A program made the position numbers and the translations under genes. Below are positions 4,163 to 59,826 of a stretch of DNA of 64,000 nucleotides, in pieces (positions within the stretch are counted from its first letter, which is position 1; each line of letters starts with the position of its first letter). This stretch comes from Bretschneidera sinensis (Eukaryota; Streptophyta; Magnoliopsida; Brassicales; Akaniaceae). The notes under the pieces are model-generated. The model made no database searches and was not told the DNA's origin. It was given only the letters and a program-made list of their open reading frames with translations. Where the stretch lies: contig CM043699.1 of assembly GCA_023935145.1 (NCBI GenBank), positions 68,054,638 through 68,118,637 on the forward strand, given 5' to 3'.

Positions 4163-4213
4163 ATCCCACATCGGATTGGAAACACATTGCACTCATGGAG
4201 TTCCCCTATAAAA
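4163..4213 (+). promoter_or_regulatory. USE plus TATA promoter, Y1 5' LTR
   Basis: ATCCCACATCG (4163-4173) matches the plant snRNA upstream sequence element RTCCCACATCG. TATAAAA lies at 4207-4213, with 33 nt between them. A weaker doubled copy (CCCACATCCCACAACGG) lies about 40 nt upstream. Confidence 0.75.
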
Positions 4214-4683
4214 GCTCCATTTTACTTCATTAAAAAGTGTGCAATCTGGAGGACTTCTGCGAGCAATCTAGAGGATCTCTAAGGCTTTGCTACCAAGGGG
4301 GGAAGCGCTGCACAATAGCTGCGAGTGGAATTTCTCTCAATATATAATCAGTTTTAATTTATTTCTTTTGAGTTTAAAGTTTTATGTTTAGCACTTTAAT
4401 TGTGAAATTTAGTTTCATAATCATGAGAGACTAAAACCTTCATCTAAGGTTGAAGATGAAGCCTCGCCATTGTTCGGCATAATATTTTTCAGATATGTTC
4501 ATACAATTATGATATTTTTAGTATTAATGTTCTGCTTCAATTGTTTGAGTATATTCTTATGATTGATTGTGTTTAAATTGTTCAAATTGGATATTCCTTG
4601 TGTTTCATCTACCGGATATGGCGGATCATCCAAAGTAAATTGGATATCCATTGTGATTCTAAAGGGATATATTGGATGATTTG

Positions 4684-4688
4684 GTTGA
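4684..4688 (+). other. Target-site duplication GTTGA of X array, left
   Basis: GTTGA precedes the first X LTR and recurs at 16319-16323 after the third. No such duplication flanks the middle LTR. The Y LTR at 27401 shows the empty site TTGGTTGAATTAGGG. Confidence 0.9.
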
Positions 4689-5135
4689 TGATGAGAGTCA
4701 TAAAATGCACCTTAACAGTACTTAATTATTAGCATTTTAGGGTTGATCTAGGTTTGAATTGCACTTTTATACCTTAACAACTCTAAAGTGCCATTATTGG
4801 ATCATTGATCTATTTCAATGCATTTTAAGGTACTTTAAGATCAAAAGAGATGGAAAAGCTATCATTGCTTTTAGCACAATGACTCGATGGACACCGGAGT
4901 GAAGGTTCACAAGCACTTGGAAATGAGTTTCACTAAATTGCCAGAATTGCTCGTACAGATCAATCATTTTTGTAAATTAAAACTGTATTGATGTAAGAAA
5001 AACCAGGAGATGAGCCATATATGCTTAGAAAGACTCGAAAGTTTATTTTCTGGAGAATTTTATGGCTCATAAAAATGATTTTTCTAGAGAAAGTTATGGC
5101 AGTTTTAGTAGACGAAGGTCAAGTTGGAAGATGCC

Positions 5136-5268
5136 TAGTGCGCTCGAGCGCACCAAGCTTGCGATTGATCCCAAGTGCGCACTCGCGACATCCCACATCG
5201 GTCAGAAATACCTTGCAGTACACCATAATGTGCTCGATTGCACCATGCTATAATCGAGCGCACACGGG
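5136..5268 (+). repeat. CG-rich palindromes in X LTR 1
   Basis: This contains TGCGCTCGAGCGCA, a decayed TGCGATTGATC form, TGCGCACTCGCGA, and two degraded copies near 5231 and 5252. These imperfect 14-bp palindromes lie directly upstream of the USE/TATA pair. A separate USE (5190-5200) is embedded among them. Confidence 0.7.
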
Positions 5269-5272
5269 TAGT

Positions 5273-5323
5273 ATCCCACATCGGAATGGAAACACATTGC
5301 ACTCTCAGAATTCCCCTATAAAA
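5273..5323 (+). promoter_or_regulatory. USE plus TATA promoter, X LTR 1
   Basis: ATCCCACATCG lies at 5273-5283 and TATAAAA at 5317-5323, 33 nt apart. An extra USE without its own TATA lies at 5190-5200. Confidence 0.78.
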
Positions 5324-6151
5324 ACCCTACTTCACTTCATCTTTTGGACTCATCTGGGAGTGAATCCAGAGGGCTTTTAGGAGCAATCCAGAGGGTCTTT
5401 AGGAGGAAAATTAAAGGTCAGAGGCCAGGGAAAACACTATGAAGGCTGCCACACTCTCCCTCATGGCCAACCAATCTCCAAGCAAGGCGAATGGATGAAT
5501 CTCTAGGTGTAGTCGTTCTTACTTTCTAGTATTGATTCATTGTAATTTGGATTTATTATTATTATTAAACATTGTTATGATTTACTCTTTGATTTAATTA
5601 GAAGATTTCCTATTAATCCGGTGATTGTATGCTTCTCCTAGATATAAGTCTAGTCATGCTCTTTTTATGTCAATTTGTTTGGATGTGATTGAGTCCACTA
5701 GATTTATCTTTTAGGTTTGTCCATTGCTGCGATATTTTCAATTATATATATTGTTTTCTCTTGATAAATTTATAGGATAGGTCATGTGTGCTTAACTTGA
5801 AAGTAAAGGGTAATTCATATCAATTACATTAGGGTTTATACATGCGCTTTATTTGAATATTTGCCGATTGCCTGTTTGGGATGTGAAACTTGCAATCGAG
5901 CTAAAAACAATTGAGTCAAGTTAGGATTAGGGCAACAAACCTAGGAAGGATTCTCGGATCCTTGTTGTTTCTTTATTATAACCATCAATCTATTTACACA
6001 ATTTTCTCAGAACTCAGATTCTTCCATTTAATCTTTTATTGTTTGTGTTAAGGTGCACACCTTCTTTTGCAGTTAACTTGTTTCCTTGTGAAATCGATAT
6101 CTCAAAGTTATGCTACAACTACTGTATTACTCTTTGCGCGTAATCAAATTT

Positions 6152-6169
6152 TGGCATCGTTGCCAGGGA
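6152..6169 (+). other. Primer-binding site, X unit 1
   Basis: TGGCATCGTTGCCAGGGA resembles the complement of the 3' end of plant tRNA-Asp (TGGCGCCGTTGCCGGGG), with a few changes. It follows the LTR end after six bases. Confidence 0.8.
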
Positions 6170-6397
6170 AACGCGCTTGAGTACAAAGAAGATTGTCAAC
6201 TTTTGATATGACGATAAAAGAGTTTTAAATAGTTTTTCTTTTCAGCAGCTGTAAAGGCAGTAACTTCGTTCCTTCTTTTTGCTTGCTGCATTATTTTTTA
6301 TTATTATTATTGTTCGTTTTTCCTAAGTTTTGATTTTCTGATTTTTTGATTTTATTTTATTTTGTTTTATTTATTTCCCCTCTGATTCATTTGATGT

Positions 6398-8146
6398 ATG
6401 CTTAGACCGAGAGATTTGTGAGGTAGATTCATTAGAGGACCCGAAATAGAATTACCCTCTCCTTCCACATCCGATATTGAAACCTCGCCTAGATCAAACC
6501 ATAGTGCACCCCCATCAGAGAATTTAGAAGATTTTGATAACATGGTCGATAACCCTAATGAGAATGTTGCTAGAACACTTCAGGATTACCTCCACCCTAC
6601 ACACACAGCCACACCATCATGCATCATGTTTCCAGCCAATACTCGCCAACTAAAGTTTAAAACAGAGATGATACAATTACTCCCTACATTTCATGGCTTG
6701 GATAATGAAAACCCATATGTGCACATTAGAGACTTTGAGGAAGTAGTTGCGACCTTTCATAGTTAAGATGAAACTTATGACATTATGAAACTTAAGTTCT
6801 TTTCTTTTGCTTTGAAGGATAGAGCTAAGAGTTGGCTATACTCACTTAGACCACGATCTATTGGGTCGTGGACTGCGATGACTCGAATTTTCTTTAACAA
6901 ATACTTTCCCCAACATAAGACCAACGCTTTAAAAAGGCAAATCTCCACCTTTGCAAAAAAGGACAGCGAGATTTTGTATCAGTCTTGGGAGAGATTTAAG
7001 GAGTTATTGAGTATGTACCCTCACCATGGGTATGAGAACTGGTGCTTAGTGAGCTATTTTTATGAGGTACTTACATATAGAGAGCGCCAATTTGTAGAGA
7101 TGATGTGTAATGGTGAATTCTTGGGGAAAGATCCTGATGAGGCCATAGAGTACCTCAATGAGCTTGCTGAAAAAGCTCACACTTGGACTGGACCTAGTGC
7201 TACTGAAAGCACAAATAGGTCACGACCTATAGGGAACCCAAATGGTGGTGGAATTTACCATCTTAGGGAAGAGGATAACCTTAAGGCTAAGGTCGAGATG
7301 CTCACTAAGGAACTAGAGGTGTTAAAGACTAAAAGCTCAAAGCTAACACAAGTAGCTAATCATACAGCATCTTTGAAACCATGTTTTGTGTGTGGCAGGG
7401 TAGATCGTCTAGCCCAAGAGTGTCCCACATTTGCTGAGATGAGAGGGATGTATGAGGAACAATGCAATGCCTTAGGCATGTACAAGAAGTCTTTGGCACC
7501 CTTCTCTGATACTTATAATCCGGGATGGCGAAATCACCCCAATTTCAGCTGGAAGTCTGAAAACCAGCAGCTTGCACAACCCCCTACACCATATCTTGAA
7601 CTATATCATGCACCTGTATCTTCTAGGAATTCTTTAGAAGACACTTTACATGCTTTTATTGAGGTACAAGGTAAGACTAATAAAAGACTTGAATCTTTAA
7701 TTGTGCAGGTTGTTGAAGAACATAAGGATCTAAAGAGCCAAGTGTCCAAGTTGATGAGCTACTTGAGTGTGACTGAGCAAGGTAAGTTCCCTTCTCAAGC
7801 TCAGTCCACATCCCATGGTCAACACCTAGCACAAAAAAATTTGAAGGAGGTGAATGTCATTGAGACACTAAGTGGTAAGTCCTTGCACATCCCAATAACG
7901 AAAAAATCAGAGGATGTGGACGAAGGCCGCCAAGCATACATGATTGACTCATTCATGGATAAGGTCCAGCACCTTAATCCATTGGAGTCCACCCTCACCC
8001 ATGGCCTCACAAGAGCATATATCGACTCAGAATTTGCGGATGTCACTGATGACATCCTTAAGGCCTCTCAAAAGCATACAAGCACCAAATTTGGCAATCA
8101 AGTAGTGGCTAGTGCATTCAACCTATGTTTTTCTAGGAGGGAATAA
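6398..8146 (+). pseudogene. gag: Gag of X unit 1 (two stops)
   Basis: One frame runs from ATG at 6398 to the stop at 8144-8146. It encodes an Athila/Tat-like Gag of about 580 residues. The retrotransposon Gag core is clear (AKSWLYSL, FFNKYFPQHKT, LYQSWERFKELLSMYPHHG), followed by a charged segment and a zinc knuckle near 7378-7425. The knuckle reads CFVCGRVDRLAQEC, so the histidine of CX2CX4HX4C is replaced by Arg. In-frame stops are TGA at 6419-6421 (Arg in unit 2) and TAA at 6764-6766 (Gln in unit 2). The C-terminal half has no domain I recognise. No pol follows. Gag would form particles that package element RNA. Confidence 0.85.
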
Positions 8147-9738
8147 GAGAGTCTGGCTGAAGACGTAAAACTTAGCGCTCATGGGAGATCCTTTTTACTT
8201 TTATTGTTTTCATATTTCTTTTTCTTGTTTATTGTTCGTTTTTTTTTCTGTTTTCTAGCATTAACTTAGTATTTCTTTTTCAGGGACAAATATACGAAGC
8301 AGTTCAAATGGTGGAGCACAATTTTCAGCTTTCGTGCACTTTTGCGTACAAAGGTAGTTTCCTTTACCTTCTCTTTGACATTGAGGTCAATGTAATTTTT
8401 TAGTTGGGGGTGGAGGAAACATATTCTTTTTCTTTCATTGAACTGCTTGGTGCCATTCTTCGTTTTGTTTGTTTTTAGCATGCTTGGTGTTAGCCTTAGA
8501 GTTAATTCATATGTCAATGATATAAACTTAATTGAGATAGCAAATAGCATGTAGAAGGAGTTAAATTTTGCTTCGGTTTGAAATTAATTTAAGTATCAAT
8601 CTTCATTTGGTTTGAGACTCTAGTTTGGGGTAAGATTGTACGATTAGTTTTAAACATTTAAAGAAGCTTTATGTGTGATTATTTTGTGAATATTTTTATG
8701 GTCTCGACAAGCTCTAGAACTTACTTGATAACCACTTGAGGCGAATTCCTAGAATGCACATTACTTAAGATATGATATAGGCCATTTTTGGACCGTTTAG
8801 GCCTATAAAACCTACCATTGCTATATTTACCACTAGTCACCTATTTGAGCCTTGTTTCTTTAGAAAACCCATTTACTTACCCTTATGAGCCTAAAAATTT
8901 TATTTTTACCCTTCTTTTAAAATAACTTAGTTGTACACATTTGTTGAGAAGCACTTAAGAGGAGTAAGGATGGAAACATGAGAAAAAATATATTATTACC
9001 ATAACCCAAGTATATTAAAGGAGATAAGTTGGGGGTTATGGAAAAGAAAAGAAATATGAAAAATGAGGTGAATGGTCTTATGCCAAAATACAAAAGAAAA
9101 GAAAAGAAAAGAGAAGTGAATTATGGTAAAGAAAGAAGAAAAGTGGTGATCTGAGAAAAAAGCTCGAAAAATGGTTGAAAAAGTTGGGTGTTGAAGTAAG
9201 GTTATCAAGTGCTTAAAGTGGTTGTGTTTAAAACTAAGAGATCGAGTTCTTTTACTTGTGAATCCTTCCTGTTCTTTCTTAACCTTTACCTTAGCCTAAC
9301 GTTACAAGCTTATTAAAGACCTATTGATCCAATGTAATGTGATTTTTCTACAATAGTGGAGAGTGGTTTGAAATGTAAGCCTATGGAGCTTGTTTTTGTA
9401 ATTGATGTCACGCAATTTATCACGTTTTAGGGGCCAAGACTTGTATTCATGAATGTTATACATAAAGTCATCCGGGTGTTCAGATTAATGGATTGTGGTA
9501 AGACGGATGATAAGAGTCAATAACGATTTTAACATTGATGCTTGGATTACTTTTGGACTTAAGTGATATTTAATGATTCTATGTGCTACGTATTATGTGC
9601 AATTTCTGAGACAAAAAATGGGAATTGCTCCTTGTTTAACAATAGCATTGCTTTACCTTGTTTTGATTCCTACCATAGAATTCATTTCTCCTTTTCGCTT
9701 GAATTGCTAGGGACTAGTAATAAGCTAGTTGGGGGTTG
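8147..9738 (+). other. X unit 1 3' noncoding region
   Basis: No coding sequence is seen here. It starts with the shared post-gag motif (8152-8189), shortened by about 15 bases compared with unit 2. It has G-rich polypurine-like stretches near 8403, 8623 and 9014, a purine-rich GAAAAG run at about 9040-9150, and the polypurine tract GTTGGGGGTTG just before the LTR at 9739. Confidence 0.7.
8152..8189 (+). promoter_or_regulatory. Shared post-coding motif, X unit 1
   Basis: GTCTGGCTGAAGACGTAAAA followed by CTTAGCGCTCATGGGAG is the motif found after the coding part of all X, Y, Z and W units here. This copy lacks the GCACCCCA end. Confidence 0.65.
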
Positions 9739-10189
9739 TGATGAAAGTCATAAAATGCACCTTCACAGTACTTAATTGTTAGTATTTTAGGGTTGATCTA
9801 GGTTTGAATTGCACTTTTATACCTTAACAACTTTAAAGTGTCATTCTTGGATCATTGATCTATTTCGATGCATTTTCAGGTACTTTAAGTTCAAAAGAGA
9901 TGGAAAATCTATCATTTCTTTTAGTACAATGACTCGATGGACACCGGAGTGAAGGTTCACAAGCACTTGTTGGAAAGGAGTTTCACTAAATTGCCAGAAT
10001 TGCCGGTACAGATCAATCATTTTTGTAAATTAAAACTGTATTGATGTAAGAAGAACCAGGAGATGATCCATATATGCTTAGAAAGACCCGAAAGTTTATT
10101 TTCTGGAGAATTTTATGGCTCGTAAAAATGATTTTTCTAGAGAAAGTTATGGCAGTTTTAGTAGACGAAGGTCAAGCAGGAAGATGCCT

Positions 10190-10320
10190 AGTGCGCTCGA
10201 GCGCACCAGGCCTACGATAAATCGCAAGTGCGCACTCGCGACATCCCACATCGGTCAGAAATACCTTGCAATGCACCATAGTGTGCTCGATTGCACCATG
10301 CTGCGATCGAGCGCACACAG
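10190..10320 (+). repeat. CG-rich palindromes in X LTR 2
   Basis: Copies and variants of TGCGCTCGAGCGCA, including TGCGATCGAGCGCA near 10300, lie upstream of the USE/TATA pair in the same arrangement as in LTR 1. Confidence 0.7.
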
Positions 10321-10325
10321 GCAGT

Positions 10326-10376
10326 ATCCCACATCGGAATGGAAACACATTGCACTTCGGGAATTCCTCTATAAAA
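10326..10376 (+). promoter_or_regulatory. USE plus TATA promoter, X LTR 2
   Basis: ATCCCACATCG at 10326-10336 and TATAAAA at 10370-10376, 33 nt apart. Confidence 0.78.
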
Positions 10377-11204
10377 ACCCTACTTCACTTCATCTTTTAG
10401 AATCATCTGGGAGTGAATCCAGAGGGCTTTTAGGATCAATCCGGAGGGCTTTTAGGAGGAAAATTAGAGGTCGGAGGCCGGGGAAAACACCATGAAGGCT
10501 GCCATACTCTCCCTCATGGCCAACTAATCTCCAAGTAAGGCGAAGGGATGAATACCTAGGTGTAGTCGTTCTTACTTTCTAGTCTTGATTCATTATAATT
10601 TGGATTTATTATTATTATTAAACATTGTTATGATTTACTCTTTGATTTAATTAGAAGATTTCCTATTAATCCAGTGATTGCATGCTTCTCCTAGATATAA
10701 GTCTAGTCATGCTCTTCTTATGTCAATTTGTTTGGATGTGATTGAGTCCGGTAGATTTATCTTTTAGGTTTGTCCATTGCTGCGATATTTTCATTTAGAT
10801 ATATTGTCATCTCTTAATAAATCTATAGGATAGGTCATGTGTGCTTAACTTGAAAGTAAAGGGTAATTCATATCAATTACATTAGGGTTTATACATGTGC
10901 TGTAATTGAATATTTGCCGATTGCCTGTTTGGGATGTGAAACTTGCAATCGAGATAAAAACAATCGAGTCAAGTTAGGATTAGGGCAACGAACCTAGGGA
11001 GGATTCCCAGAACCTTGTTGTTTCTTTATTATAACCATCAATCTATTTACACAATTTGCTCACAACTCAGATTCTTCCATTTAATCTTTTATTGTTTGTG
11101 TTAAGGTGCACACCTTCTTTTGCAGTTAACTTGTTTCCCTGTGAAATCGATATCTCAAAGCTGTGCTACAACTACCACATTACTCTTTGCACGTAATCAA
11201 ATTT

Positions 11205-11222
11205 TGGTGCCGTTGCCGGGGA
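11205..11222 (+). other. Primer-binding site, X unit 2
   Basis: TGGTGCCGTTGCCGGGGA matches the complement of the tRNA-Asp 3' end with a single difference. It is better kept than in unit 1. Confidence 0.85.
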
Positions 11223-11452
11223 AACGCGCTTAAGTACAAAGAAGATTGTCAACTTTTGACATGATGGTAGAAGAGTTGTAAATAGTTTATCTTTTCAGCA
11301 GCTGTAAAGGCAGTAACTTCGTTCCTTCTTTTTGCTTGCTGCATTATTTGTTTTTTTTATTATAATTGTTCTTTTTTCTAAGTTTTGATTTTATGATTTT
11401 ATGATTTTATTTTGTTTTGTTTTATTTATTTCCCCTCTGATTCATTTGGTGT

Positions 11453-13200
11453 ATGCTTAGACCGAGAGATTTGCGAGGTAGATTCATTAGAGGACCCGAA
11501 ATAGAATTACCCTCTCCTTCCACGTCCGATATTGAAACCTCACCTAGATTAAACCATAGTGCACCCCTATCAGAGAATTTAGAAGATTTTGTTAACATGG
11601 TCGATAACCCTAATGAGAATGTTGCTAGGACACTTCAGGATTACCTCCACCCTACACACACAGCCACACCATCATGCATCATGCTTCCAGCCAATACTTG
11701 CCAACTAGAGTTTAAAATAGGGATGATACAGTTACTCCCTACATTTCATGGCTTGGATAATGAAAACCCATATGTGCACATTAGAGAGTTTGAGGAAGTA
11801 GTTGCGACTTTTCATAATCAAGATGAAACTCATGACATTATGAAACTTAAGTTCTTTCCTTTTGCCTTGAAGGATAAAGCTAAGAGTTGGCTATACTCAC
11901 TTAGACCACGATCTATAGGGTCGTGGACTGAGATGACTCGAATTTTCTTTAACAAATACTTTCCCCAACATAAGACCAACGCTTTAAAAAGGCAAATATG
12001 CACCTTTACACAAAAGGACAACGAGACTTTGTATCAGTCTTGGGAGAGATTTAAGAAGTTATTGAGTATGTTCCCTCATCATGGGTATGAGAACTGGCGC
12101 TTAGTGAGCTATTTTTATGAGGGACTTACATATAGAGAGCGCCAATTTGTAGAGATGATGTGTAATGGTGAATTCTTGGAGAAAGATCCTGATGAGGCCA
12201 TAGAGTACCTCAATGAGCTTGTTGAAAAAGCTCACACTTGGACTGGACCTAGTGCTACTGAAAGCACAAATAGGTCACGACCTATAGGGAACCCAAATGG
12301 TGGTGGAATTTACCACCTTAGGGAAGAGGATAACCTTAAGGCCAAGGTCGAGATGCTCACTAGGGAACTAGAGGTGTTAAAGACTAAAAGCTCAAAGCCA
12401 ACATAAGTAGCTAATAATACAGCGTCTTTGAAACCATGTTTTGTGTGTGGAAAGGTTGATCATCTCGCCCAAAAGTGTCCCACATTTGCTGAGATGAGAG
12501 GGATGTATGAGGAACAATGCAATGCCCTAAGCATGTACAAGAAGTCTTTGGCACCCTTCTCTGATACCTATAATCCGGGATGGCGAAATCACCCCAATTT
12601 TAGTTGGAAATCTGAAAACCAGCAGCTTGCACAACCCCCTGCACCATATCTTAACCATATCATGCACCTGTGTCTTCTAGGAATTCTTTAGAAGACACTT
12701 TACACGTTTTTATTGAGGCACAGGGTAAGACTAATAAAATACTTGAATCTTTAATTGTGCAGGTTGTTGAAGAACATAAGGATCTAAAGAGCCAAGTGTC
12801 CAAGTTGATGAGCTACGTGAGTGTGACTGAGCAAGGTAAGTTCCCTTCTCAAGCTCAGTCCACATCCCATGGTCAACACCTAGCACAAAAAAATTTGAAG
12901 GAGGTGAATGTCATTGAGACACTAAGTGGTAAGTCCTTGCACATCTCAACAACGAAAAAATCAGAGGATGTAGACGAAGGCCACCAAGCATACATGATTG
13001 ACTCATTCATAGACGAGGTCCAGCACCTTAATCCATTGGAGTCCACCCTCACCCATGGCCTCACAAGAGCATATATCGACTCAGAATTTGTGGATGTCAC
13101 TAATGACATCCTTAAGGCCTCTCAAAAGCATACAAGCACCAAATTTGGCAATGAAGTAGTGGCTGGTGCATTCAACCTTTGTTTTTCTAGGAGGGAATAA
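11453..13200 (+). pseudogene. gag: Gag of X unit 2 (stop and frameshift)
   Basis: It starts MLRPRDLRGRF at 11453 and is open for 317 residues through the Gag core (LLPTFHGL, FFNKYFPQHKT, QSWERFKKLLSMFPHHG) to a TAA at 12404-12406, where unit 1 has CAA. The same frame then carries an intact CX2CX4HX4C zinc knuckle (CFVCGKVDHLAQKC, from about 12434). A one-base deletion near 12650, relative to unit 1, shifts the rest to another frame that stays open from about 12670 to the stop at 13198-13200. The damage falls at different places from unit 1, so the two copies decayed independently. There is no pol. It belongs to the same Athila/Tat-like Gag family as 6398-8146. Confidence 0.85.
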
Positions 13201-14857
13201 GAGTGTCTAGCTGAAGACGTAAAACTTAGCCCTCATGGGAGGCACCCCATAACTTATCCTTTTTACTTTTATTGTTTTCATATTTCTTTTTCTTGTTTAT
13301 TGTTCATTTTTTTTTCTGTTTTCTAGTATTAACTTAGTATTTCTTTTTCAGGGATAAATATACAAAGCAGTTCAAATGGTGGAGCACAATTTTCAGTTTT
13401 CGTGCACTTTTGTGTACAAAGGTAGTTTCATTTACCTTCTCTTTGACATTGAGGCCAATGTAATTTTTCAGTTGGGGGTGGAGGAAACATATTCTTTTTC
13501 TTACATATTCTTTTTCTTTCATTGAACTACTTGGTACCATTCTTCGTTTTGTTTGTTTTTAGCATGCTTGGTGTTAGCCTTAGAGTTAATTCACATGTCA
13601 ATGATATAAACTTAATTGAGATAGCAGATAGCATGTAGAAGGACTTAAATTTTGCTTCGGTTTGAAATTAATTTAAGTATCAATCTTCATTTGGTTTGAG
13701 ACTCTAGTTTGTGGTAAGATTGTATGATTAGTCTTAAACATTTAAAGAAGCTTTATGTGTGATTATTTTGTGAATATTTTTGCAGTCTCGACAAGCTCTA
13801 GAACTTACTTGATAACCACTTGAGGCGAATTCCTAGAATGCACATTTCTTAGGATATGATATAGGCCATTTTTGGACCGTTTGAGCCTATAAAACCTACC
13901 ATTGCTATATTTACCACTAGTCACCTATTTGAGCCTTTTTCTTGAAAAAAAATTTGAGCATTGTTTCTTTAAAAAACCCATTTACTTACCCTTATGAGCC
14001 TAAAAATTTTATCTTTACCCTTCTTTTAAAAGAACTTAGTTGTACACATTTGTTGAGGAGCACTTAAGAGGAGTAAGGATGGAAACATGAGAAAAAATAT
14101 ATTATTACCATAACCCAAGTATATTAAAGGAGATAAGTTGGGGATTATGGAAAAGAAAAGAAAAATGAAAAAGGAGGTGAATGGTCTTATGCCAAAATAC
14201 GAAAGAAAAGAAAAGAAAAGAGAAGTGAATTATGGCAAAGAAAGAAGAAAAGAAAAGAAAAGTGATGATATGAGAAAAATGTTCGAAAAATGGTTGAAAA
14301 AGTTGGGTGTTGAAGTAATGTTATCAAGTGCTTAAAGTGGTTATGTTTAAAACTAAGAGATCGAGTTCTTTTACTTGTGAATCCTTCCCGTTCTTTCTTA
14401 ACCTTTACCTTAGCCTAACGTTACAAGCTTATTAAAGACCTATTGATCCAATGTAATGTGATTTTTCTACAATAGTGGAGAGTGGTTTGAAATGTAAGCC
14501 TATGGAGCTTGTTTTTGTGATTGATGTCACGCAATTTATCATGTTTTATAGGCCAAGACTTGTATTCATGAATGTTATGCATAAAGTCATCCGGATGTTC
14601 GAATTAATTGATTGTGGTAAGACGGATGATAAGAGTCAATAACGATTTTAAGATTGATGCTTGGATTACTTTTAGACTTAAGTGATATTTAATGATTCTA
14701 TGTGATGCGTATTATGTGCAATTTCTGAGACAAAAAATGCGAATTGCTCCTTGTTTAACACTAGCATTGCTTTACCTTGTTTTGATTCCAACCATAAAAT
14801 TCATTTCTCGGTTTCGCTTGAATTGCTAGGGACTAGCAATAAGCTAGTTGGAGGTTG
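13201..14857 (+). other. X unit 2 3' noncoding region
   Basis: It holds the shared post-gag motif (13205-13249), polypurine-like G runs, and a purine-rich low-complexity stretch at about 14140-14330. That stretch happens to be open for 65 Lys/Glu-rich residues, which I regard as chance. The polypurine tract AGTTGGAGGTTG ends at 14857. Confidence 0.7.
13205..13249 (+). promoter_or_regulatory. Shared post-coding motif, X unit 2
   Basis: The motif is complete here: GTCTAGCTGAAGACGTAAAA, then CTTAGCCCTCATGGGAGGCA, then CCCCA. Confidence 0.65.
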
Positions 14858-19495: not shown

Positions 19496-19512
19496 CACCC
19501 CCAAACTTACAT
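19496..19512 (-). other. W polypurine tract
   Basis: The minus strand reads GTAAGTTTGGGGGTG directly before the LTR start TGATAGG. Confidence 0.8.
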
Positions 19513-42057: not shown

Positions 42058-42066
42058 ATCATCTTG

Positions 42067-46313: not shown

Positions 46314-46324
46314 ACAGGCCCGAG

Positions 46325-46545: not shown

Positions 46546-46711
46546 AATGTCTCGAGAAGCTTCAAATCTCCTGAAATGCTTCATTTTCTCCACAAAGCTG
46601 TAAAAACACAAAAAACACAAGAAAAACGTAAAATGAAGTAAAATGCTACTAACTAAGAGCATAAAAAATGTAAGTTAAGGGTCTAAAATATGCAATATTT
46701 AAGACTCATCA

Positions 46712-46726
46712 AATACCCCCAAACTT
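46712..46726 (-). other. Z1 polypurine tract
   Basis: Minus strand AAGTTTGGGGGTATT before TGATGAG. Confidence 0.85.
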
Positions 46727-47938: not shown

Positions 47939-47983
47939 TGGGGTGCCTCCCATGAGCGCTAAGTCTAACGTCTTCAGCCAGAC
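47939..47983 (-). promoter_or_regulatory. Shared post-coding motif, Z1
   Basis: Minus strand GTCTGGCTGAAGACGTTAGA, then CTTAGCGCTCATGGGAGGCA, then CCCCA. Confidence 0.65.
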
Positions 47984-47989
47984 CCAACA

Positions 47990-49711
47990 TTAGTAAACAG
48001 GCCCAACTAAGCTCTCCACCATCTGATCAATAAATGGGAATGGAAAATGAGCAGGCCTAGTGCCAGCATTCAATTTACGGTAGTCTAGACACTTTCTCCA
48101 TCTTGACTGCACTCGAGTTGGAACCAACTCGTTGTCTTTATTTACTACCATAAATTCAGCATGTTTGGGCACGACTGTAATCTGGCTCACCCACTTGCTA
48201 TCAGAGATGGGATAAATGATCCCTGCCTCTAACAGCTTAATATCTTCTGCCCTCATAACCTCTTGCATAGCAGGGTTGAGCCTTCTTTGTGGCTCCCTCG
48301 ATGGCTCAGCATTCTCTTCCAACTGTATCGTGTGTATCATCAACGAGGGGTTGATTCGTTTGACATCCTCAATAGTCCAGCCTATAGCTTCCTGATGCTC
48401 TCTTAAAAAGTCCAATAATTTCTCCTCTGGAGCATCACCCAAATCTAAGGCTATAATTATAGGCAAAGAATCTGCTGGACCTGGGAACTTATACTCAAGA
48501 TTATCCAGTAAAGGCTTAAGTTCCTTCTTGTGAGGTTCAGGTGTTGTGGTTTCCTCCGTCTCACTGCTTTCTCGAGGATCAGACTCCAAAATGACATTTA
48601 CTTCATCGAGTAACTTATCTAAGCCCAAGTCCTCTCCAAAGTGAGCAAAGCATGCCTCCAAGGGATCCTCAATACGGGATTCATCCATAGTCTCCTCTGT
48701 CCTACTACTCTCCCGAGGAGCAGACTCCACGATAGTATTTGCTTGCTCAAGTAACTTGTCTAAGACCAAATCCTCTTCAAACTGAGCAAAGCATGCCTCC
48801 ATAATGTCCTCAGACTTCTCTTCTTTCTTGGGCACTTGTAGTCTCTAAGGGTAAGGCGCTTTAGGTAAAAAGGACCTAGAGAGATCCTTAATAATACGAG
48901 TGGCTGTAGATGGCTCAGCATCTCTCTTCTCATTGTTGCCACTCTCTTGCCCTTGTTGCATAGCAGGGTTCTCTTCCACTTGATTGTCCACTTGTCTCCC
49001 AGACAAGTATGGGACAGTTGATTGCACTTGTTCCTGCCAATGCATTGGAGTTGAAGAATTTCCCACCGCAAATTGTTCCTTCGGGTTAGGCTCAGATTGA
49101 CTGGGGAACTCTCCTTCCTCTTCTTCACCCACGTAACTTGCGATTTGATCAATTTGACTCTCTAGTGTAGCAATCGCTTGGGTGTTTTCTATTGTTGCAC
49201 TCATCACTTCACTCATAGATTGGCTAGTCATTTTCATGAAATCATTGAGAGCGTCCTCCAATGACTGTGAAACCGATGCTGGCGCTTGAATGGGAGCTTG
49301 GTAAGCGGGTGATGGTGCTGGATAAGCTGAGTGAACATAATTTGGAATTGGTGGAGGAAATTCAGGAGTGTATTGATTGTGAGCATGGTAAGGGGCTCCT
49401 CCCTGATTCATTGGTTGGTTCTGCTCCCATGAAAAATTAGAGTGGTCCCACCACCCTGGATTGTATGTTTCAGAGCAAGATCCATTTGATTGCCAACAAC
49501 AGTCATTGAAAGCATTCGTTTGTTCCATAGGATACTCGGCATAAGCCGGCATTGATGGGCAATTCTGTGCTAGATGCATGGGACTAGCACAGACGGAACA
49601 GTTTTCAACATTGAAAGTGTTGGCAGCATTGAGGGACAGGCAGGTCATTTTAATGAAATCCTTGAGGGCGTCCTCTAAAGACTGTGAAACCGGCGCTAGA
49701 TTCATCAACAT
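47990..49711 (-). pseudogene. Z1 Gag fused to RT N-terminus (one stop)
   Basis: Minus frame from MLMNLAPVSQSLEDALKD to the stop at 47990, 574 codons with one TAG at 48845-48847 (GAG in Z2). The Gag core is missing. A knuckle CSVCASPMHLAQNC, YNPGWWDHSNFSW, a Pro-rich part and two acidic 46-residue repeats are present. Then come KKELKPLLDNLEYKFPGPAD, EEKLLDFLREHQEAIGWTI, the RT entry PSREPQRRLNPAMQEV, GIIYPISDSKWVSQ and CLDYRKLNAGTRPAHFPFPF, ending abruptly after FIDQMVESLVG. The protease, the YxDD catalytic part, RNase H and integrase are absent. Z2 ends at the same residue, so this is the inherited form of the family. Confidence 0.88.
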
Positions 49712-49806
49712 ATTTTTTTTTTAAAATTAATTTTTTTTTTAAAATTAAATTAACTAGTAGAAAAATAAAATCAATTCAGATAAAAAATTTTCACAAACCA
49801 AATTAT

Positions 49807-49824
49807 TCCCCGGCAACGGCGCCA
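49807..49824 (-). other. Primer-binding site, Z1
   Basis: Minus strand TGGCGCCGTTGCCGGGGA, an exact complement of the 3' end of plant tRNA-Asp as I know it. Confidence 0.92.
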
Positions 49825-50634
49825 AAAACTTGTTGTGAGTTTTAATTTACTCGCAAGCGCACGAGTCGTTTGCAGTATAGCGTTGTGCAAGTGCGAGGTC
49901 GAATCCACAGGGAATTGCGTTGTGAAAATATATTTTTAATTTAAACTAACTCTATCTTAACCTAGTTCCAAATTTCAGAATTATATTGCAAAATAAATTA
50001 AAAGTAAACTAAGTTGATTTAAAAACTAATAATAAAAAGCACTAAGGTTTCCGAATCCACCCCACCGAAGTTAAGCATACATGTTCTAAAAATATAGCCT
50101 ATCAAAACATTCAATGAATCCAACTATAAGACAAAAAACAAAGAATATCCCAACTAAACCAAAAGCACCCGATGTATCCGCTCTTAACAAATCACAAAGG
50201 GAATCCAAGTTAATCGAAAAGCGTTCAATGTATCCATCAGATGAAACACAAAGAAAATCCAACAGACAATTTAAACTCAATCAATTATAAGATTAACTCA
50301 AATAATTGACAGAACATTTATATTAAAAATTGTCAGATTTGTACAAGCAAATCTGAACTACTATGCCAAACAACGGCGGGGCTTCATCTTCAACCTTAGC
50401 TGAAGAGTCTAGCCACTCATAACTATAAAACTATAATAACAAGTGCTAAACATTTAAACTAAAACAAAGAAATAAATAAACAACTTTACATGGGAGAAAT
50501 TCCACTCGCTGCCGGGCGGCGCTTCCCCTCGTGATTGCAATGCCTTCGGGATCCACCAGAATGCTGGCGGACATCCACCGGTAAACACCAAAGTGGCTCA
50601 GGAATTGTACACTGAATGATGAGGTCAAATGGTG

Positions 50635-50686
50635 TTTATATAGGGGGAGTCCCGGAGTAATGTGGCTTGCAGAAACGATGTGGGAT
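50635..50686 (-). promoter_or_regulatory. USE plus TATA promoter, Z1 5' LTR
   Basis: Minus strand ATCCCACATCG (50676-50686) and TATATAAA (50635-50642), 33 nt apart. Confidence 0.78.
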
Positions 50687-50696
50687 ACAGGCCCGA

Positions 50697-50920
50697 GTGC
50701 GCTCGATCGCAGTTTGGTGCGATCGATCGCAGGTACGATTGATTGCATGTCTTGTGCGCACGATCTCATGTGCGCTCGATCGCATGTCTGCTGCGATCGA
50801 TCGCATATGCACTGATCTTCAAATATTTCGATGTGGGATTGATGACCTTGCGCTCGATCATAGGCAGGTGCGCTCGAGCGCATGTGCGCTTGATCGCGTA
50901 TCTCGTGCGATCGATCGCAA
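50697..50920 (-). repeat. CG-rich palindromes in Z1 5' LTR
   Basis: Same cluster as 46325-46545, with several CG/TG differences between the two LTRs. Confidence 0.8.
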
Positions 50921-51089
50921 TGTCTCGAGAAGCTTCGAATCTCCTGAAATGCTTCATTTTCTCCACAAAGCTGTAAAAACACACAAAACACAAGAAAAAC
51001 GTAAAATGAAGTAAAATACTACTAACTAAGAGCATAACAAATGTAAGTTAAGGGTCTAAAATATGCAATATTTAAGACTCATCAGTGAT

Positions 51090-51264
51090 GCACAAGATAC
51101 ATTTGGAGGAGAACACCAAGCCATCAAAGGAGCCACAGAGAAGACTCAACCCAGCTATGCAAGAGGTTGTGAGGGCTGAAATAATAAAATTGTTGAATGC
51201 TGGATTCTACAGGCGACTTCTCCAAGATTTCAGCAAGATTGCCAGGCCCTTCTGCAATTTGTAA
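51090..51264 (+). pseudogene. Y3 RT remnant after Z1
   Basis: The Y3 frame resumes with HKIHLEENTKPSKEPQRRLN and PAMQEVVRAEIIKLLNAG, then jumps to FYRRLLQDFSKIARPFCNL and a stop at 51262-51264. The deletion joins the start of RT to its end. NAG occurs in both contexts (LLNAG and GNAxFYR), suggesting deletion through a short repeat. Y1 has a different junction. Confidence 0.82.
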
Positions 51265-51310
51265 GTCTGGCTAAAGATGTTAAACTTAGCACTCATGGGA
51301 GACACCCCAC
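51265..51310 (+). promoter_or_regulatory. Shared post-coding motif, Y3
   Basis: GTCTGGCTAAAGATGTTAAA, then CTTAGCACTCATGGGAGACA, then CCCCA. Confidence 0.65.
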
Positions 51311-52640
51311 AACATATCCTTTTTGTTTGTTTATTATTTTATATATTTCTTATTACTATTTATTTCTAGTGTTTCTTTTGTTTTCAGTCTTTATTTTTCA
51401 GAGACACCGCGTACTTCAGTTCAAGTTTGGGGGTATGCTATGAGCCATGCCAGTCCAGCTAGTTCTCCATCTTCCAAGTCAGCTCTTTCCATATTATTCA
51501 CATATTGGGGTCAATGTGTAATTTAAGTTTGGGGGTATGGGAGACATATTACACACACTTTGTCCTAATTTGTTGTTTTTTTTTCTTCGTTTTAAAGAGA
51601 AGATAAATCCATGCTCATGTTATTTTGAAATTTTGGTTGATCTAAACAAATACTGTGATGTGATGTCATTGGTGAGCTTAAAATCGTGAACATGTGATTT
51701 GATGATAGAGTTTTAAAACTTTGTTACTTACTTTAGGCATTTGAGTATGCATATGTTTGATCTAATCTTACACGAGTACATTAGCACAAAATTGTGTGAG
51801 GTATAACATGTGATTTTTAATGTGTATGTTTCCTTGACTTAACTGAAACTGGATGACTTGTAGGATAAACACTTTGGCATAGAATGTAAAAAAAAATATT
51901 TATAATGATCATCAATAAACTTTCCACTGAGTAACTGAACCTCTTGCCTCAGTAAGCAGTGAGTGTTCACGTCAAAAGGTGGGAATTTTATTCTTAATGA
52001 TCATTGCAAAACTTTTTGCTGAGTAACTGGACCTCTTGCCTCAGTAAGCAGTGAGTGTTCAGGTCAAAAGGTGGGAATTTTTCCTGGTAGCATTAAGGCC
52101 AGTTTAGTTTTGTACCCTTTTAAACTCAAGTTAGTAAGTCCTTAGGGGTGTCTTTACACCTAATTCCCTAAAACCATATGGTTTGGGAGTCATTGACTCA
52201 ACACTAGCTATATGTGTCAATTAGAAAGCTTAAGGGAACTAAACATAGCAGAACCTTATAATAAAAGAGAGAAGAAAATAAAACTATGCCATTGTTGTTC
52301 ATTCTGATGAGAAATTCTGTAAATCTTGAGACATGGAGACATTATACATTGAAGTTATTTGGAAGTCTCATCTTTATATGCTAATTCACTTTACACTGAG
52401 TCAGACTTGTGATGCCTTAGACTGTCTTTTGTAAGTAATTAGATTTTAAAATTCCTATTCATTGCAAAGATGGGTTTATATTTTAAGCTTGCTCATGAAT
52501 GAATATCATGGGTTTATGTGCTACTTAAATTTTTGGACACCATGAATGATGGATTTATCTTTGTGTTCTTTGTTTTTCATTTAGTTTTTTTTTTTTTTTG
52601 TTTTGCTAAGGGACTAGCAAAATGTAAGTTTGGCGGTTTT
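51311..52640 (+). other. Y3 3' noncoding region
   Basis: No gene. Polypurine-like tracts at about 51427 and 51528, and two tandem copies of the GAGTAACTGGACCTCTTGCC module (about 51925 and 52020). The final tract is damaged (AAGTTTGGCGGTTTT) before the LTR. Confidence 0.75.
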
Positions 52641-54049
52641 TAATGAGTGCCAAATATTGCATATTTTGGCCCCTTAATTTACATTTGTTAGCTTAAGAAT
52701 TTGTTACTTTGAGTTGTTTTTCGTTGTTTTATAGGTTTACAAACACTTGGAAAGGAGTTTCACTAAATTGCCAGAATTTCCCGTATAGATCAGTCATCTT
52801 TGTGGATTAAACTGTATTGATTCTGGAAGAACTAGGAGATGAGCCATATATTCTTGAAAAGATCCAGATGTCTATTTTTTGGGAAATTTTACGGCTTGTA
52901 AATATGAGTTTTCTAGAGAAAGTTATGGTAGTTTTAGTAGTCAAAGGTCAAACTATACGTGATTTCAGCGTAGCAGAAGTGATTTTTGTTGATTAAACTG
53001 TAATGATTCAGAAAGAACCAGGAGAGAGCCATATATGCTTCGAAAGATCCATATGTCTATTTTTTGAGGAATTTTACGGCTCGTAAATATGATTTTTCTA
53101 GAGAAAGTTATGGCAGTTTTAGTAGATAAAGGTCAGGTTGTGCGGGATTTCAACGTGGGCAGAAGTTTTGAAGGGCATGTGAAGGCTTAAATCCCACATC
53201 CCACATCGGATTGGAAACACATTACACTCATGGAGTTCCTCTATAAAAGTCCCATTTCACTTCATCAAATGGGTGTGCAATCTGGAGGACTTCTGCTAGC
53301 ATTCTGGTGGATCTCGAAGGCTTTGCTACCAAGGGGGGAAGCGCTATACAACAGCGAGTGAAATTTCTCCCAATGTATAGTCAGTTTTAATTTATTTCTT
53401 TTTTAGTTTGAAAGTTTAATGTTTAACACTTTTATTGTGAACTTTAGTTTCATAATTATGAGAGACTAAAATCTTCATCTGAGGTTGAAGATGAAGCCTC
53501 GCAATTGTTTGGCATAATATTTTCAGATTTGTTCATACAATTATGATATTTTTAGTATAAATGTTATGTTCAATTATTTGAGTAAAATCTTATACTGATT
53601 GCTTTTAAATTGTTCAATTGGATATTCCTTGTGTTTTATCTGCCAGATACAGTGGATCATTCAAATTAGATTGGATATCCATTGTGATTTTTAAACGGAT
53701 ACATTGGATTGTTTTGGTTTAGTTTGGGTATTTGCTGTGATTTGTATAATGGTGGATTCATGGAATGATTTGATAGATTATTTTTATATAGAACATGAAA
53801 ACATATGCTTTACTTTGGTGTGATGGATTCAGAAACCTTAGTATTTTTATTATTTTTTTTTAAATCAATGTAGTTTAGTTTATACTTTCTGCATAATACA
53901 ACTCAAAATTTGAAACTAGGTTAAAATAGGTTTAGTTTAGATAAAAATATATTTTCACAACGCAATTCCCTGTGGATTCGACCTCGCACTTGCACAACAC
54001 TATATTGCAAACGACTCGTGCACCTGCGAGTAATTTAAAACTCACAACA
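52641..54049 (+). mobile_element. Y3 3' LTR
   Basis: It starts TAATGAGTGCCAAATATTGC (TG mutated to TA) and ends CTCACAACA, 1409 bp, followed by TTTTA. Confidence 0.9.
53198..53248 (+). promoter_or_regulatory. USE plus TATA promoter, Y3 3' LTR
   Basis: ATCCCACATCG at 53198-53208 and TATAAAA at 53242-53248, 33 nt apart. Confidence 0.75.
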
Positions 54050-55117: not shown

Positions 55118-55319
55118 TGATGAGTCTTAAATAATGCATATTTAAGACCCTTAACTTATATTTGTTAGGCTCTTAGTTAGTAGTATTTCACTTAATTTTA
55201 TGTTCTTTTTTGTGTTTTGTGTATTTTTACAGGATTGTGGAGAAGTTGAAGCATTTCAGGAGAAATAAAGCATTTCAGGAGAAATAAAGCATTTCAGGAG
55301 ATGTGAAGCTTCTGGAGAC

Positions 55320-55530
55320 ATTGCGATCGATCGCAAGAGATATGCGATCGAGCGCACCTGCCTACGAACGAGCGCATGGTCAACATCCCACATCGAAATA
55401 TTTGAAGTTCAGTGCATCTGCGATCGATCGTAGCAGACATGCGATCGAGCGCACATGAGATCGTGCGCACAAGACATGTGATCGATCGTACCTGCGATCG
55501 ATCGCACCACACTGCGATCGAGCGCACACG
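55320..55530 (+). repeat. CG-rich palindromes in Z2 5' LTR
   Basis: TGCGATCGATCGCA, TGCGATCGAGCGCA and variants recur about eight times. A first USE copy (ATCCCACATCG, about 55384) lies among them. Confidence 0.82.
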
Positions 55531-55536
55531 GGCAGT

Positions 55537-55588
55537 ATCCCACATCGAATCTGTAACCCATATTGCTCCGGGTCTTCCCCTATATAAA
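55537..55588 (+). promoter_or_regulatory. USE plus TATA promoter, Z2 5' LTR
   Basis: ATCCCACATCG at 55537-55547 and TATATAAA at 55581-55588, 33 nt apart. Confidence 0.8.
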
Positions 55589-56408
55589 CACAATCTGGCC
55601 TCATCATTCAGTGTACAATTCCTGAGCCACTTTGGTGTTTACCGGTGGACGTCCGCCAACATTCTGGTGGATCCCGAAGGCATTGCTACCACGAGGGGAA
55701 GCGCCACCCGTCAGCGAGTGGAATTTCTCCCATGTAAAGTTTTTATTTATTTTTTTATATTCAGTTGTTTTGGTTTAAATGTTTAGCACTTTTTATTATA
55801 GTTTTATAGTTATGAGTGGCTAGACTCTTCAGCTAAGGTTGAAGATGAAGCCCCGCCGTTGTTTGGCGTAGTAGTTCAGATTTACGTGTACAAATCTGAC
55901 AATTTTTAGTATAAAATGTTCTGTCAATTATTTGAGTTAATCTTATAATTGATTGAGTTTAAATTGTCTGTTGGATATTCTTTGTGTTTCATCTGATGGA
56001 TACATTGAATACTTTTCGATTAAATTGGATTTCCTTTGTGATTTGTTAAGAGCGGATATATTGGATGCTTTTGATTTAGTTGGGATATTCTTTGTTTTTT
56101 GTCTTATAGTTGGATTCATGGAATATTTTGATAGGCTATATTTTTAGAACATATATGCTTAACTTCGGTGGGGTGGATTCGGAAACCTTAGTGATTTTAT
56201 TATTAGATTTTAAATCAATTTAATTTAGTTTTAATTTGTTTTGCAAATTATCATTCAAAATTCGGAACTAGGTTAAGATAGAGTTAGTTTAGATTGAAAA
56301 TATACTTTCACAACGCAATTCCCTGTGGATTCGACCTCGCACTTGCACAATGCTATACTGCAAACGACTCGTGCGCTTGCGAGTAATTTAAAACTCACAA
56401 CAAGTTTT

Positions 56409-56426
56409 TGGCGCCGTTGTCGGGGA
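56409..56426 (+). other. Primer-binding site, Z2
   Basis: TGGCGCCGTTGTCGGGGA, one difference from the tRNA-Asp complement. Confidence 0.9.
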
Positions 56427-56524
56427 GTTGTTTTGTTTATGAAATTTTTTGGTCTGAATTGATTTTATTTTTCTACTAGTTAGTTATAAAAAAATAAAAA
56501 AAGAATTAGAAAAATTTAAAAAAA

Positions 56525-58105
56525 ATGTGGATGAATCCAGCGCCGGTTTCACAGTCTTTAGAGGATGCCCTCAAGGATTTTATTAAAATAACCGGCCCGT
56601 CCCTCAATGCTGCCAACATATTCAATGTTGATAGATGTTCCATCTGTGCTAGTCCTCTGCATTTAGCACAGAATTGTCTATCAATGCCGGCTTTTGCCGA
56701 GTATCCCATGGAACAAATGCATGCTTTCAATGAGTGTTGTTGGCAATCAAATGGATCTTACTCTGAAACATACAATCCAGGGTGGTGGGACCACTCTAAT
56801 GTTTTATGGATGCAGAACCAACTGAGGAATCAGGGAGGAGACCCTTATCATGCTCACAATCAATACCCTCCCGAATTTCCTCCACCAATTCCAAGTTATG
56901 GTCACTCAGCTTATCCAGCACCATCACCCGCTTACCAAGCTCCCATTCAAGCGCCAGTGTCGGTTTCACAGTCATTGGAGGACGCTCTCAATGATTTCAT
57001 GAAAGCGTCTAGCCAATCTATGAGTGAAGTGATGAGTGCAACAATAGAAAACACCTAAGCGATTGCCACACTAGAGAGTCAAATTGATCAAATCGCAAGT
57101 TACGTGGGTGAAGGAGAGGAAGGAACGTTCCCCAGTCAAACTGATCCTAACCCAAAGGAACAGTTTGCGGTGGGAAATTCTTCAACTCCCATGCATTGGC
57201 AGGAACAAGTGCAATCAACTATCCCATACTTGTTTGGGAGACAAGTGGACAATCAAGTGGAAGAGAACCCTGCTATGCACCAAGGGCAAGAGAGTGGCAA
57301 CAATGAGAAGAGAGATGCTGAGCCATCTACAGCCACTCGTATTATTAAGGATCTCTCTAGGTCGTCTTTACCTAAAGCGCATTACCTTGAGAGACTACAA
57401 GCGCCCAAGAAAGAAGGGAAGTCTGAGGACATTATGGAGGCATGCTTTGCTCAATTTGAAGAGGATTTGGGCTTAGATAAGTTATTTGAGCAAGCAAATG
57501 CTACTTTGGAGTCTGCTCCTCTAAAGATCAGTGAGATGGAGGAAACCACAACACCTGAACCTCACAAGAAGGAACTTAAGCCTTTACTGGATAATCTTGA
57601 GTATAAGTTCCCAGGTCCAGCAAATTCTTTGCCTATAATTATAGCTTTAGATTTGGGTGATGCTTCAGAGGAGAAATTATTGGACGTCTTAAGAGAGCAT
57701 CAGGAAGCTATAGGCTGGACTATTGAGGATGTCAAAGGAATCAACCCCTCGTTGGTGATACACACGATACAGTTGGAGGAGAATGCTAAGCCATCGAGGG
57801 AGCCACAAAGAAGGCTCAACCCTGCTTTGCAAGAGGTTGTGAGAGCGGAAGATATTAAGCTGTTAGAGGCAGGGATCATTTATCCCATCTCTGATAGCAA
57901 GTGGGTGAGCCAGATTCCAGTCGTGCCCAAACGTGCTGAATTTACGGTAGTAAATAAAGACAACGAGTTGGTTCCAACTCGAGTGCAGTCAAGATGGAGA
58001 AAGTGTCTAGACTACCGTAAATTGAATGCTGCCACTAGGCCTGATCATTTTCCATTCCCATTTATTGATCAGATGGTGGAGAGCTTAGTTGGGTCTGTTT
58101 ACTAA
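56525..58105 (+). pseudogene. Z2 Gag fused to RT N-terminus (one stop)
   Basis: A single frame of 526 codons from MWMNPAPVSQSLEDALKD to the stop at 58103-58105, with one TAA at 57056-57058 (CAA in Z1). Order: a Gag C-terminal part with knuckle CSICASPLHLAQNC, YNPGWWDHSN, a Pro-rich segment (EFPPPIPSYGHS), and a second SVSQSLEDALNDF block that repeats the N-terminus. Then one acidic repeat (EACFAQFEEDLGLDKLFEQA; Z1 and the Y elements have two), the Pol start, and RT blocks up to CLDYRKLNAATRPDHFPFPF and FIDQMVESLVG. There is no protease or catalytic RT. Apart from the one stop the frame is clean, so the fused protein may have been made when the element moved. Confidence 0.88.
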
Positions 58106-58111
58106 TGTTGG

Positions 58112-58157
58112 GTCTGGCTGAAGACGTTAAACTTAGCGCTCATGGGAGGCACCCCAC
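58112..58157 (+). promoter_or_regulatory. Shared post-coding motif, Z2
   Basis: GTCTGGCTGAAGACGTTAAA, then CTTAGCGCTCATGGGAGGCA, then CCCCA. Best-kept copy, seven bases after the stop. Confidence 0.68.
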
Positions 58158-59358
58158 AGCTTATCTTTTCTTTTATTTATTTATTATTTCGCATTTTTAT
58201 GATTAATGTTTGTTTTCAGTATTTTTTGTTTTCCAGTTTTTATTTTTCAGGGACAAAGCGTACTTCAGTTCAAGTTTGGGGGTATGCTATGAGCCATACC
58301 AGTCCAGATAGTTCTCCATATCTTAGGTCAGCTCTTTCCATATTAGTCACACATTGGGGTCAATGTGTAATTTAAGTTTGGGGGTATGGGAGACACATCA
58401 CACATTTTGTCCTAATTTGTTGTCTTTTCGTCATAGAGATAAATGCATGCTCATGTTATCATGAAATTTTGGTTGATCTAAACATTTTCTGTGATGTGAT
58501 GTCATTGGTGAGCTTAACATTTTGAACACATGATCTGGTGATAAATTTTAAAATTTAGTTACTTACCTTAGGCATTTGAGAATTCACATGTTTGACATAA
58601 TATAACACGAGCACATTAGCACAAATTATGTGAGGTATGACATGTGATTTTAATGTGTATATTTCCTTATCTTAACTGAAACTGGATGACTTGTTGGATG
58701 AACTCTTAGGCATAAAAAAATAAAAAAATAAAAAATTTATCAATAAACTTTTCGCTGAGTAACTGGACCTCTTGCCTCAGTAAGCAGTGAGTGTTCACGT
58801 CAAAAGGTGGAATTTTGCTTGGTAATATTAAGGTCGGTTTAATTTCGTAGCCTTTTTGACTCGAGTTAGTAAGTCCTTAGGGGTGTCTTTACACCTAATA
58901 CCCTAAAACCACCTGGTTTGGGAGTCATTGACTCAACACTCGCTACATGGGTCAATTAGAAAGCTTAAGGGAACTAAATATAGCCGTGCCTTATTAAAAA
59001 AAAAAAAAAATAAATAAATACTATGCCTTTTTCGTTCATTTTGATGGGAAATTCGGTGAATCTTGAGACATGGAGACCTTACACATTGGAGTCACTTGGA
59101 AGCTTCATTTCTATATGGTAATTCACTTTACATAGTGTCAGACTTGTGATGCCTTAACCTGCCTTTTGTAAGTAATCAGATTTTAACATTTCTATTCATT
59201 GCGAAGATGGGTTTATCTTTTTAAGCTTGCTCATGAATGAATATCATGGTGATGTGTGTTCCTTAAATTTTTGGATACCATGAGTGATGAACTTATCTTT
59301 ATGTTCTTTGTTTTTCATTTAGTCTTTTATTTTGTTTTGCTAAGGGACTAGCAAAATA
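58158..59358 (+). other. Z2 3' noncoding region
   Basis: No gene. Polypurine-like tracts AAGTTTGGGGGTATG at about 58273 and 58375, one GAGTAACTGGACCTCTTGCC module (near 58757), and an A-rich run at about 58996. Confidence 0.75.
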
Positions 59359-59374
59359 TAAGTTTGGGGGTATT
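59359..59374 (+). other. Z2 polypurine tract
   Basis: TAAGTTTGGGGGTATT immediately before the LTR TGATGAG. Confidence 0.87.
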
Positions 59375-59559
59375 TGATGAGTCTTAAATAATGCATATTT
59401 AAGACCCTTAACTTATATTTGTTATGCTCTTAGTTAGTAGTATTTCACTTTATTTTATGTTCTTTTTTTTGTTTTGTGTATTTTTACAGGATTGTGGAGA
59501 AATTGAAGCATTTCAGGAGAAATAAAGCATTTCAGGAGATGTGAAGCTTCTGGAGACAT

Positions 59560-59766
59560 TGCGATCGATCGCACGAGATATGCGATCTAGCGCACATGCG
59601 CTCGAGCGCACCTGCCTACGAACGAGCGCATGGTCAACATCCCACATCGAAATATTTGAAGTTCAGTGCATCTGCGATAGATCGTAGTAGACATGCGATC
59701 GAGTGCACATGAGATCGTGCGCACAAGACATGCGATCGATCGCACCACACTGCGATCGAGCGCACA
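59560..59766 (+). repeat. CG-rich palindromes in Z2 3' LTR
   Basis: About seven copies of TGCGATCGATCGCA-type palindromes upstream of the promoter, in the same order as the 5' LTR. Confidence 0.8.
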
Positions 59767-59774
59767 CGGGCAGT

Positions 59775-59826
59775 ATCCCACATCGAATCTGCAACCCATA
59801 TTGCTCCGGGTCTTCCCCTATATAAA
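59775..59826 (+). promoter_or_regulatory. USE plus TATA promoter, Z2 3' LTR
   Basis: ATCCCACATCG at 59775-59785 and TATATAAA at 59819-59826, 33 nt apart. Confidence 0.8.

Follow-up and report, generated by a model that had tools for sequence, protein, structure and literature searches.

An snRNA-type arrangement of upstream sequence element and TATA box in the long terminal repeats of three related retrotransposon families of Bretschneidera sinensis

A 64,000-nucleotide stretch of Bretschneidera sinensis DNA (GenBank assembly GCA_023935145.1, contig CM043699.1, positions 68,054,638 to 68,118,637, forward strand; hereafter the window, to which all coordinates refer) was found by self-comparison, and from repeat ends and target duplications, to be composed largely of nested long terminal repeat (LTR) retrotransposons. 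In eleven of these LTRs, which belong to three related families designated X, Y and Z, an upstream sequence element (USE) of the type found in plant small nuclear RNA (snRNA) genes is separated by exactly 33 nt from a TATA box (TATAAAA or TATATAAA). We put at roughly 60% the probability that the X, Y and Z LTRs carry an snRNA-type core promoter, likely using SNAPc and TBP for initiation by RNA polymerase II (Pol II) of the full-length element transcript.

The USE-TATA core and its spacing

The proximal USE matched RTCCCACATCG exactly in ten of the eleven LTRs and as a single-base variant in the remaining one (Y2). On the plus strand, the X cores were located at 5273-5323 (X1; USE 5273-5283, TATA 5317-5323, distal USE 5190-5200), 10326-10376 (X2; USE 10326-10336, TATA 10370-10376, distal USE 10243-10253) and 15445-15495 (X3; USE 15445-15455, TATA 15489-15495, distal USE 15362-15372). 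The Y cores, also on the plus strand, were located at 4163-4213 (Y1; USE 4163-4173, TATA 4207-4213, more USE-like copies at 4119 and 4126), 26884-26934 (Y2; USE variant ATCTCACATCG 26884-26894, TATA 26928-26934, a USE-like copy at 26840 and an exact one at 26847), 36711-36761 (Y3; USE 36711-36721, TATA 36755-36761, USE-like copies at 36675 and 36704) and 53198-53248 (Y4; USE 53198-53208, TATA 53242-53248, an overlapping USE-like copy at 53191). The Z family contributed two cores on the minus strand (46262-46313 and 50635-50686, element Z-a) and two on the plus strand (55537-55588 and 59775-59826, element Z-b). Measured from centre to centre, USE and TATA lie 5.5 + 33 + 3.5 = 42 bp apart, equal to four turns of 10.5 bp.

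In plant snRNA genes the USE consensus is RTCCCACATCG, and the USE stands four helical turns from TATA in genes transcribed by Pol II and one turn closer in those transcribed by RNA polymerase III (Pol III) (PMC9845283; this and the other papers cited are represented here by excerpts); the same two boxes are given in PMC545797, with the USE printed one C shorter, and the Pol III promoter of the barley U3 gene has 25 bp between them (PMC6181210). Motif, orientation and gap in the X, Y and Z LTRs thus agree with the published plant Pol II snRNA promoter. The founding papers of the spacing rule are said to be those of Waibel and Filipowicz (1990) and Connelly and Filipowicz (1993).

Throughout the window, all 25 USE-like sites (at most one mismatch) fell within X, Y or Z LTRs and in LTR sense, with two or three copies in each of the eleven. 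The distance from the upstream copies to the proximal USE was variable (83 nt in X; 136, 152 or 153 in Z; 7 to 44 in Y), unlike the proximal copy itself, which always lay 33 nt from TATA. The LTRs of two other elements, W and a Copia element (two LTRs each), both with open frames on the minus strand, all contain TATAWA, and none of the four has a USE on either strand, even at two mismatches. As a control, the window was shuffled 200 times and searched for a USE with at most one mismatch followed by TATAWA at gaps of 15-60 nt (46 gaps); 11 matches were obtained over all gaps together and none of the 200 shuffles gave one at gap 33, a chance expectation of about 0.001 per window at any single gap. 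The 33-nt spacing in all eleven LTRs, reported in a first-pass annotation of the same sequence, was confirmed, and even a single ancestral event is unlikely to have arisen by chance. Chance resemblance in AT-rich repeat DNA, which has nothing in its favour beyond the inflation of the count by related copies, is scarcely credible against these shuffles. Elsewhere, no exact match to the X/Y core pattern was found in the genome contigs scanned, and in viral contigs USE plus TATA occurred in 2, 8 and 13 stretches at gaps of 33, 25 and 40, respectively, with no excess at 33.

Divergence of the spacer and descent of the cores

The eleven LTRs represent five insertions of the three families, as judged by LTR ends and target duplications, and copies that sit within one element are not independent. 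The first-pass annotation had described the spacer as different in Z and had taken its constant length as a sign of selection on spacing. The constant length stood; the spacer, however, proved to be homologous in all three families, Z included, with 18 of 33 positions identical between family majorities and blastn matches between families spanning the core. In simulation, equal spacer length was 45-57% likely under neutral insertion and deletion, and because the spacers are homologous it is weak evidence for selection, so that selection on spacing does not follow from length alone. Insertions and deletions that compensate one another in the spacer of Z were considered and dropped, as their posterior ranged from 0.02 to 0.96 over the X-Z and Y-Z pairs, varying with pair and parameters.

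Better evidence than spacer length comes from the near fixation of USE and TATA on either side of a diverging spacer. The two Z subfamilies differ from each other at 7-9 of 33 spacer positions, against 6-7% elsewhere in the LTR, with USE and TATA fixed; the faster change of the spacer was found in all four pairs compared (p 0.0004-0.005). In X1-X2 the spacer was faster only marginally (p 0.049). The parts of the LTR upstream and downstream of the core differ in their family relationships, and no promoter module other than the USE-TATA core is shared by X, Y and Z. In U3, upstream of their proximal USE, Z and X also have CpG-containing palindromic repeats of the GCGATCGAGCGCAC type (46324-46546, 50697-50919, 55435-55528, 59580-59766 and 10272-10310); these repeats are common to X and Z, though blastn shows little else alike between the two outside the core.

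Several observations weigh against an snRNA-type promoter in these LTRs. As X, Y and Z are related, the 33-nt spacing may be one inherited event. Of the 13 within-family pairs, which are not independent of one another, the remaining 8 showed no faster change of the spacer, and the X-Y pairs gave weaker support (X2-Y3, p 0.15; X3-Y4, p 0.04). The proximal USE of Y has changed once, in Y2, and every LTR has two or three USE-like copies, while snRNA genes carry one. An alternative can be framed in which an ancestral LTR carried or acquired USE and TATA by chance and X, Y and Z inherited them, the promoter being an ordinary TATA promoter of Pol II and the USE idle or bound by some other plant transcription factor. 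It draws on the homology of the cores, on the neutral likelihood of equal spacer length, on the small number of insertions behind the eleven LTRs and on the presence in every LTR of upstream USE copies away from the 33-nt distance. Descent alone does not, however, explain why an independently published snRNA 11-mer should stand at the spacing published for it. USE and TATA, moreover, were kept and the spacer was not, and the core is common to all families while the flanking parts of the LTR differ in their relationships. We regard this alternative as a serious one, though on the whole unlikely.

Polymerase choice and the nature of the transcript

The snRNA-type promoter that we favour would work as follows. 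A SNAPc-like complex, of which SRD2, the plant SNAP50 homologue, is a component to be considered, would bind the proximal USE and TBP the TATA box four helical turns away, and this geometry would select Pol II over Pol III. The RNA would start about 30 nt after TATA and run through the element, as may be expected because snRNA-type initiation and 3'-end formation are separable in plants; the upstream USE copies may be spare or extra binding sites. The 3' processing of plant snRNAs has been described as independent of the snRNA promoter (PMC5079582), and an snRNA promoter could for this reason drive a long RNA. As to the earlier proposal that these elements use the snRNA transcription machinery, its motif, orientation and Pol II spacing held up against the published rule, and the part played by SNAPc is one that we infer.

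The same proposal had extended to uncapped-like transcripts, for which we found no support. Pol II spacing implies a capped RNA, and Pol III is not expected to read through runs of T. The first run of at least four T past the expected start lies 58 nt (X1, X2), 392 nt (X3) or 143-178 nt (the eight Y and Z LTRs) after TATA, so that all eleven have one; further runs of four T, 25 nt past TATA in X and 13 nt past it in Y1, fall no later than the expected start and carry little weight. Transcription by Pol III from a type 3 promoter, yielding short uncapped RNAs, would accord with plant U6 and U3 genes, in which Pol III uses USE and TATA too, as the excerpted literature has it, but the T runs disfavour Pol III for the element RNA, although a short Pol III RNA remains compatible with them. 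This reading was set aside as very improbable, mainly because the gap in all eleven LTRs is 33 and not about 25.

A candidate snRNA 3' box was found in part of the LTRs. Exact matches to the consensus CA(N)3-10AGTNNAA (PMC5079582, PMC545797) end 122-143 nt after TATA, in a nearly invariant block, in all eight Y and Z LTRs: at 4313-4330, 27034-27051, 36860-36876 and 53349-53363 in Y, and at 46127-46138, 50500-50511, 55705-55723 (plus strand) and 59950-59961 in Z. None of the three X LTRs has one at the corresponding place. A 150-nt stretch drawn at random from the window contains a match with probability 0.12, and of 183 other TATA sites 13 show one; additional matches lie farther downstream in some Y and Z LTRs. 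The box is a lead only, chance being possible and the eight cases sharing descent. No Sm-like site was present within 200 nt of TATA in any of the eleven LTRs, and at gathering scores Rfam matched nothing in the window. Folding of the leader was within the range of shuffled sequences in ten of eleven LTRs (z -1.15 to +0.83), X3 alone reaching -2.40, and an snRNA-like fold of the leader was dropped as a candidate, the scores being ordinary in those ten.

On these data the Y and Z LTRs might be nearly complete snRNA-type units (USE, TATA and 3' box), so that snRNA machinery would bound, at both ends, the R region of the element RNA or a short separate RNA no longer than about 92-113 nt. The presence of the box, in a nearly invariant block, in all eight LTRs speaks for this; its lack in X, its background frequency, the further downstream matches, the shared descent of the eight cases and the negative results for Sm site, folding and Rfam speak against it, and if the box functioned in the 5' LTR the genomic RNA would be truncated. 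We consider it distinctly improbable. Hardly better placed is a wider form of the idea, by which the lineage may have taken over the snRNA transcription system whole: a Pol II-spaced USE-TATA core and, in two families, a 3' box ending R would let the splicing-RNA machinery start, and partly end, the replication RNA, the activity of the elements then tracking SNAPc/SRD2 levels in dividing cells.

The insertions, their relatives and their significance

The five elements with a USE all have perfect 5-bp target duplications and TG/CA ends, and primer-site and polypurine-like stretches were recognised in the elements by eye. Y-a (LTRs Y1 and Y2; 3752-27737, plus strand, duplication GAATA) contains X and W nested within it. 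X is an array of the form LTR-internal-LTR-internal-LTR (4689-16318, plus strand) that sits within the Y1 LTR and has a single 5-bp duplication, GTTGA, as expected from unequal recombination between LTRs. W is a further LTR element in Y-a (18180-25605; LTRs about 18180-19495 and about 24311-25605), without a USE, with LTRs about 94% identical and a minus-strand fragment of an aspartyl protease (PF13650). Y-b (LTRs Y3 and Y4; 36119-54049, plus strand, duplication TTTTA) contains the Copia element and Z-a (45458-51084, minus strand, duplication ATCAC). Z-b lies at 55118-60641 (plus strand, duplication ATATT). The LTR pairs of Z-a and of Z-b are each 98% identical, and the transposition of Z is therefore recent. 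Outside the LTRs, a tandem repeat of about 13 copies of a 53-nt unit was noted at 28636-29339, as was an open frame of 144 aa at 32993-33424 (minus strand) that resembles the start of a host membrane protein, which we take to be BAP31-like, and that has no Pfam match.

The first internal region of X contains a gag-type open frame (6767-8146, plus strand; Retrotrans_gag, PF03732). It has 377 relatives; among the 120 of these that were listed, the named organisms are plants, including Olea, Xanthoceras, Morus, Cannabis, Ulmus, Juglans and Vitis. No relative of the gag alignment was confirmed in viral contigs or prokaryote genomes. The gag lineage is presumably of the Athila type, and the primer sites, 5-6 bp past the LTR, are of a type that we take to match tRNA-Asp. 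Gag similarity and primer site together point to Athila-like Ty3/gypsy elements. No intact pol was seen in X and Z, which look non-autonomous, with short internal regions. In primer site and its distance from the LTR, in the length of the LTRs and in gag type the elements resemble Athila, Calypso and Diaspora, from which X and Z differ in their non-autonomous look and short internal regions; no USE-type promoter is mentioned for the Athila, Calypso and Diaspora group in the excerpts of PMC1142308 and PMC6317226, the word TATA being absent from PMC1142308.

The X, Y and Z LTRs share with the plant Pol II snRNA genes (U1, U2, U4 and U5) a USE of the sequence RTCCCACATCG and a TATA box four turns away, as excerpted from PMC9845283. 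They differ from these genes in that the core lies in the LTRs of kilobase-long mobile elements and has two or three USE-like copies, and in that there is no sign of an snRNA-like product or Sm site, the 3'-box match being a candidate confined to Y and Z. The type 3 promoters of Pol III (U6, U3 and telomerase RNA), as far as the excerpts describe them, have the same two boxes but with the USE about one turn closer (25 bp in barley U3), against 33 nt and T runs in the LTRs. The nearest precedent in the excerpted literature for an snRNA-type retrotransposon promoter is Pr77 of trypanosomatid non-LTR retrotransposons, a promoter bound by the snRNA-type factors TBP and SNAP50 (PMC8190864). Pr77 belongs to another kingdom and another class of element, it lies inside the 5' end of the element and direct binding of SNAP50 is weak; the excerpt of PMC8190864 mentions no USE-TATA spacing rule. 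No report of a USE-type promoter in LTR elements was found in the text available from the open-licence papers listed, most subscription papers lying outside that scope.

Similar USE-like motifs may also occur near the starts of the LTRs of plant terminal-repeat retrotransposons in miniature (TRIM). Plant LTR promoters are generally regarded as TATA promoters that respond to stress or development. If the X, Y and Z LTRs do have an snRNA-type promoter, a mobile element would be linked to SNAPc, a housekeeping factor that the plant is unable to shut down, and the way in which such promoters evade silencing could be tested simply. The plant spacing rule for Pol II and Pol III would then be adoptable for long, messenger-like RNA, and dispersed copies of the elements may draw SNAPc away from snRNA genes or provide the genome with ready-made snRNA-type promoters.

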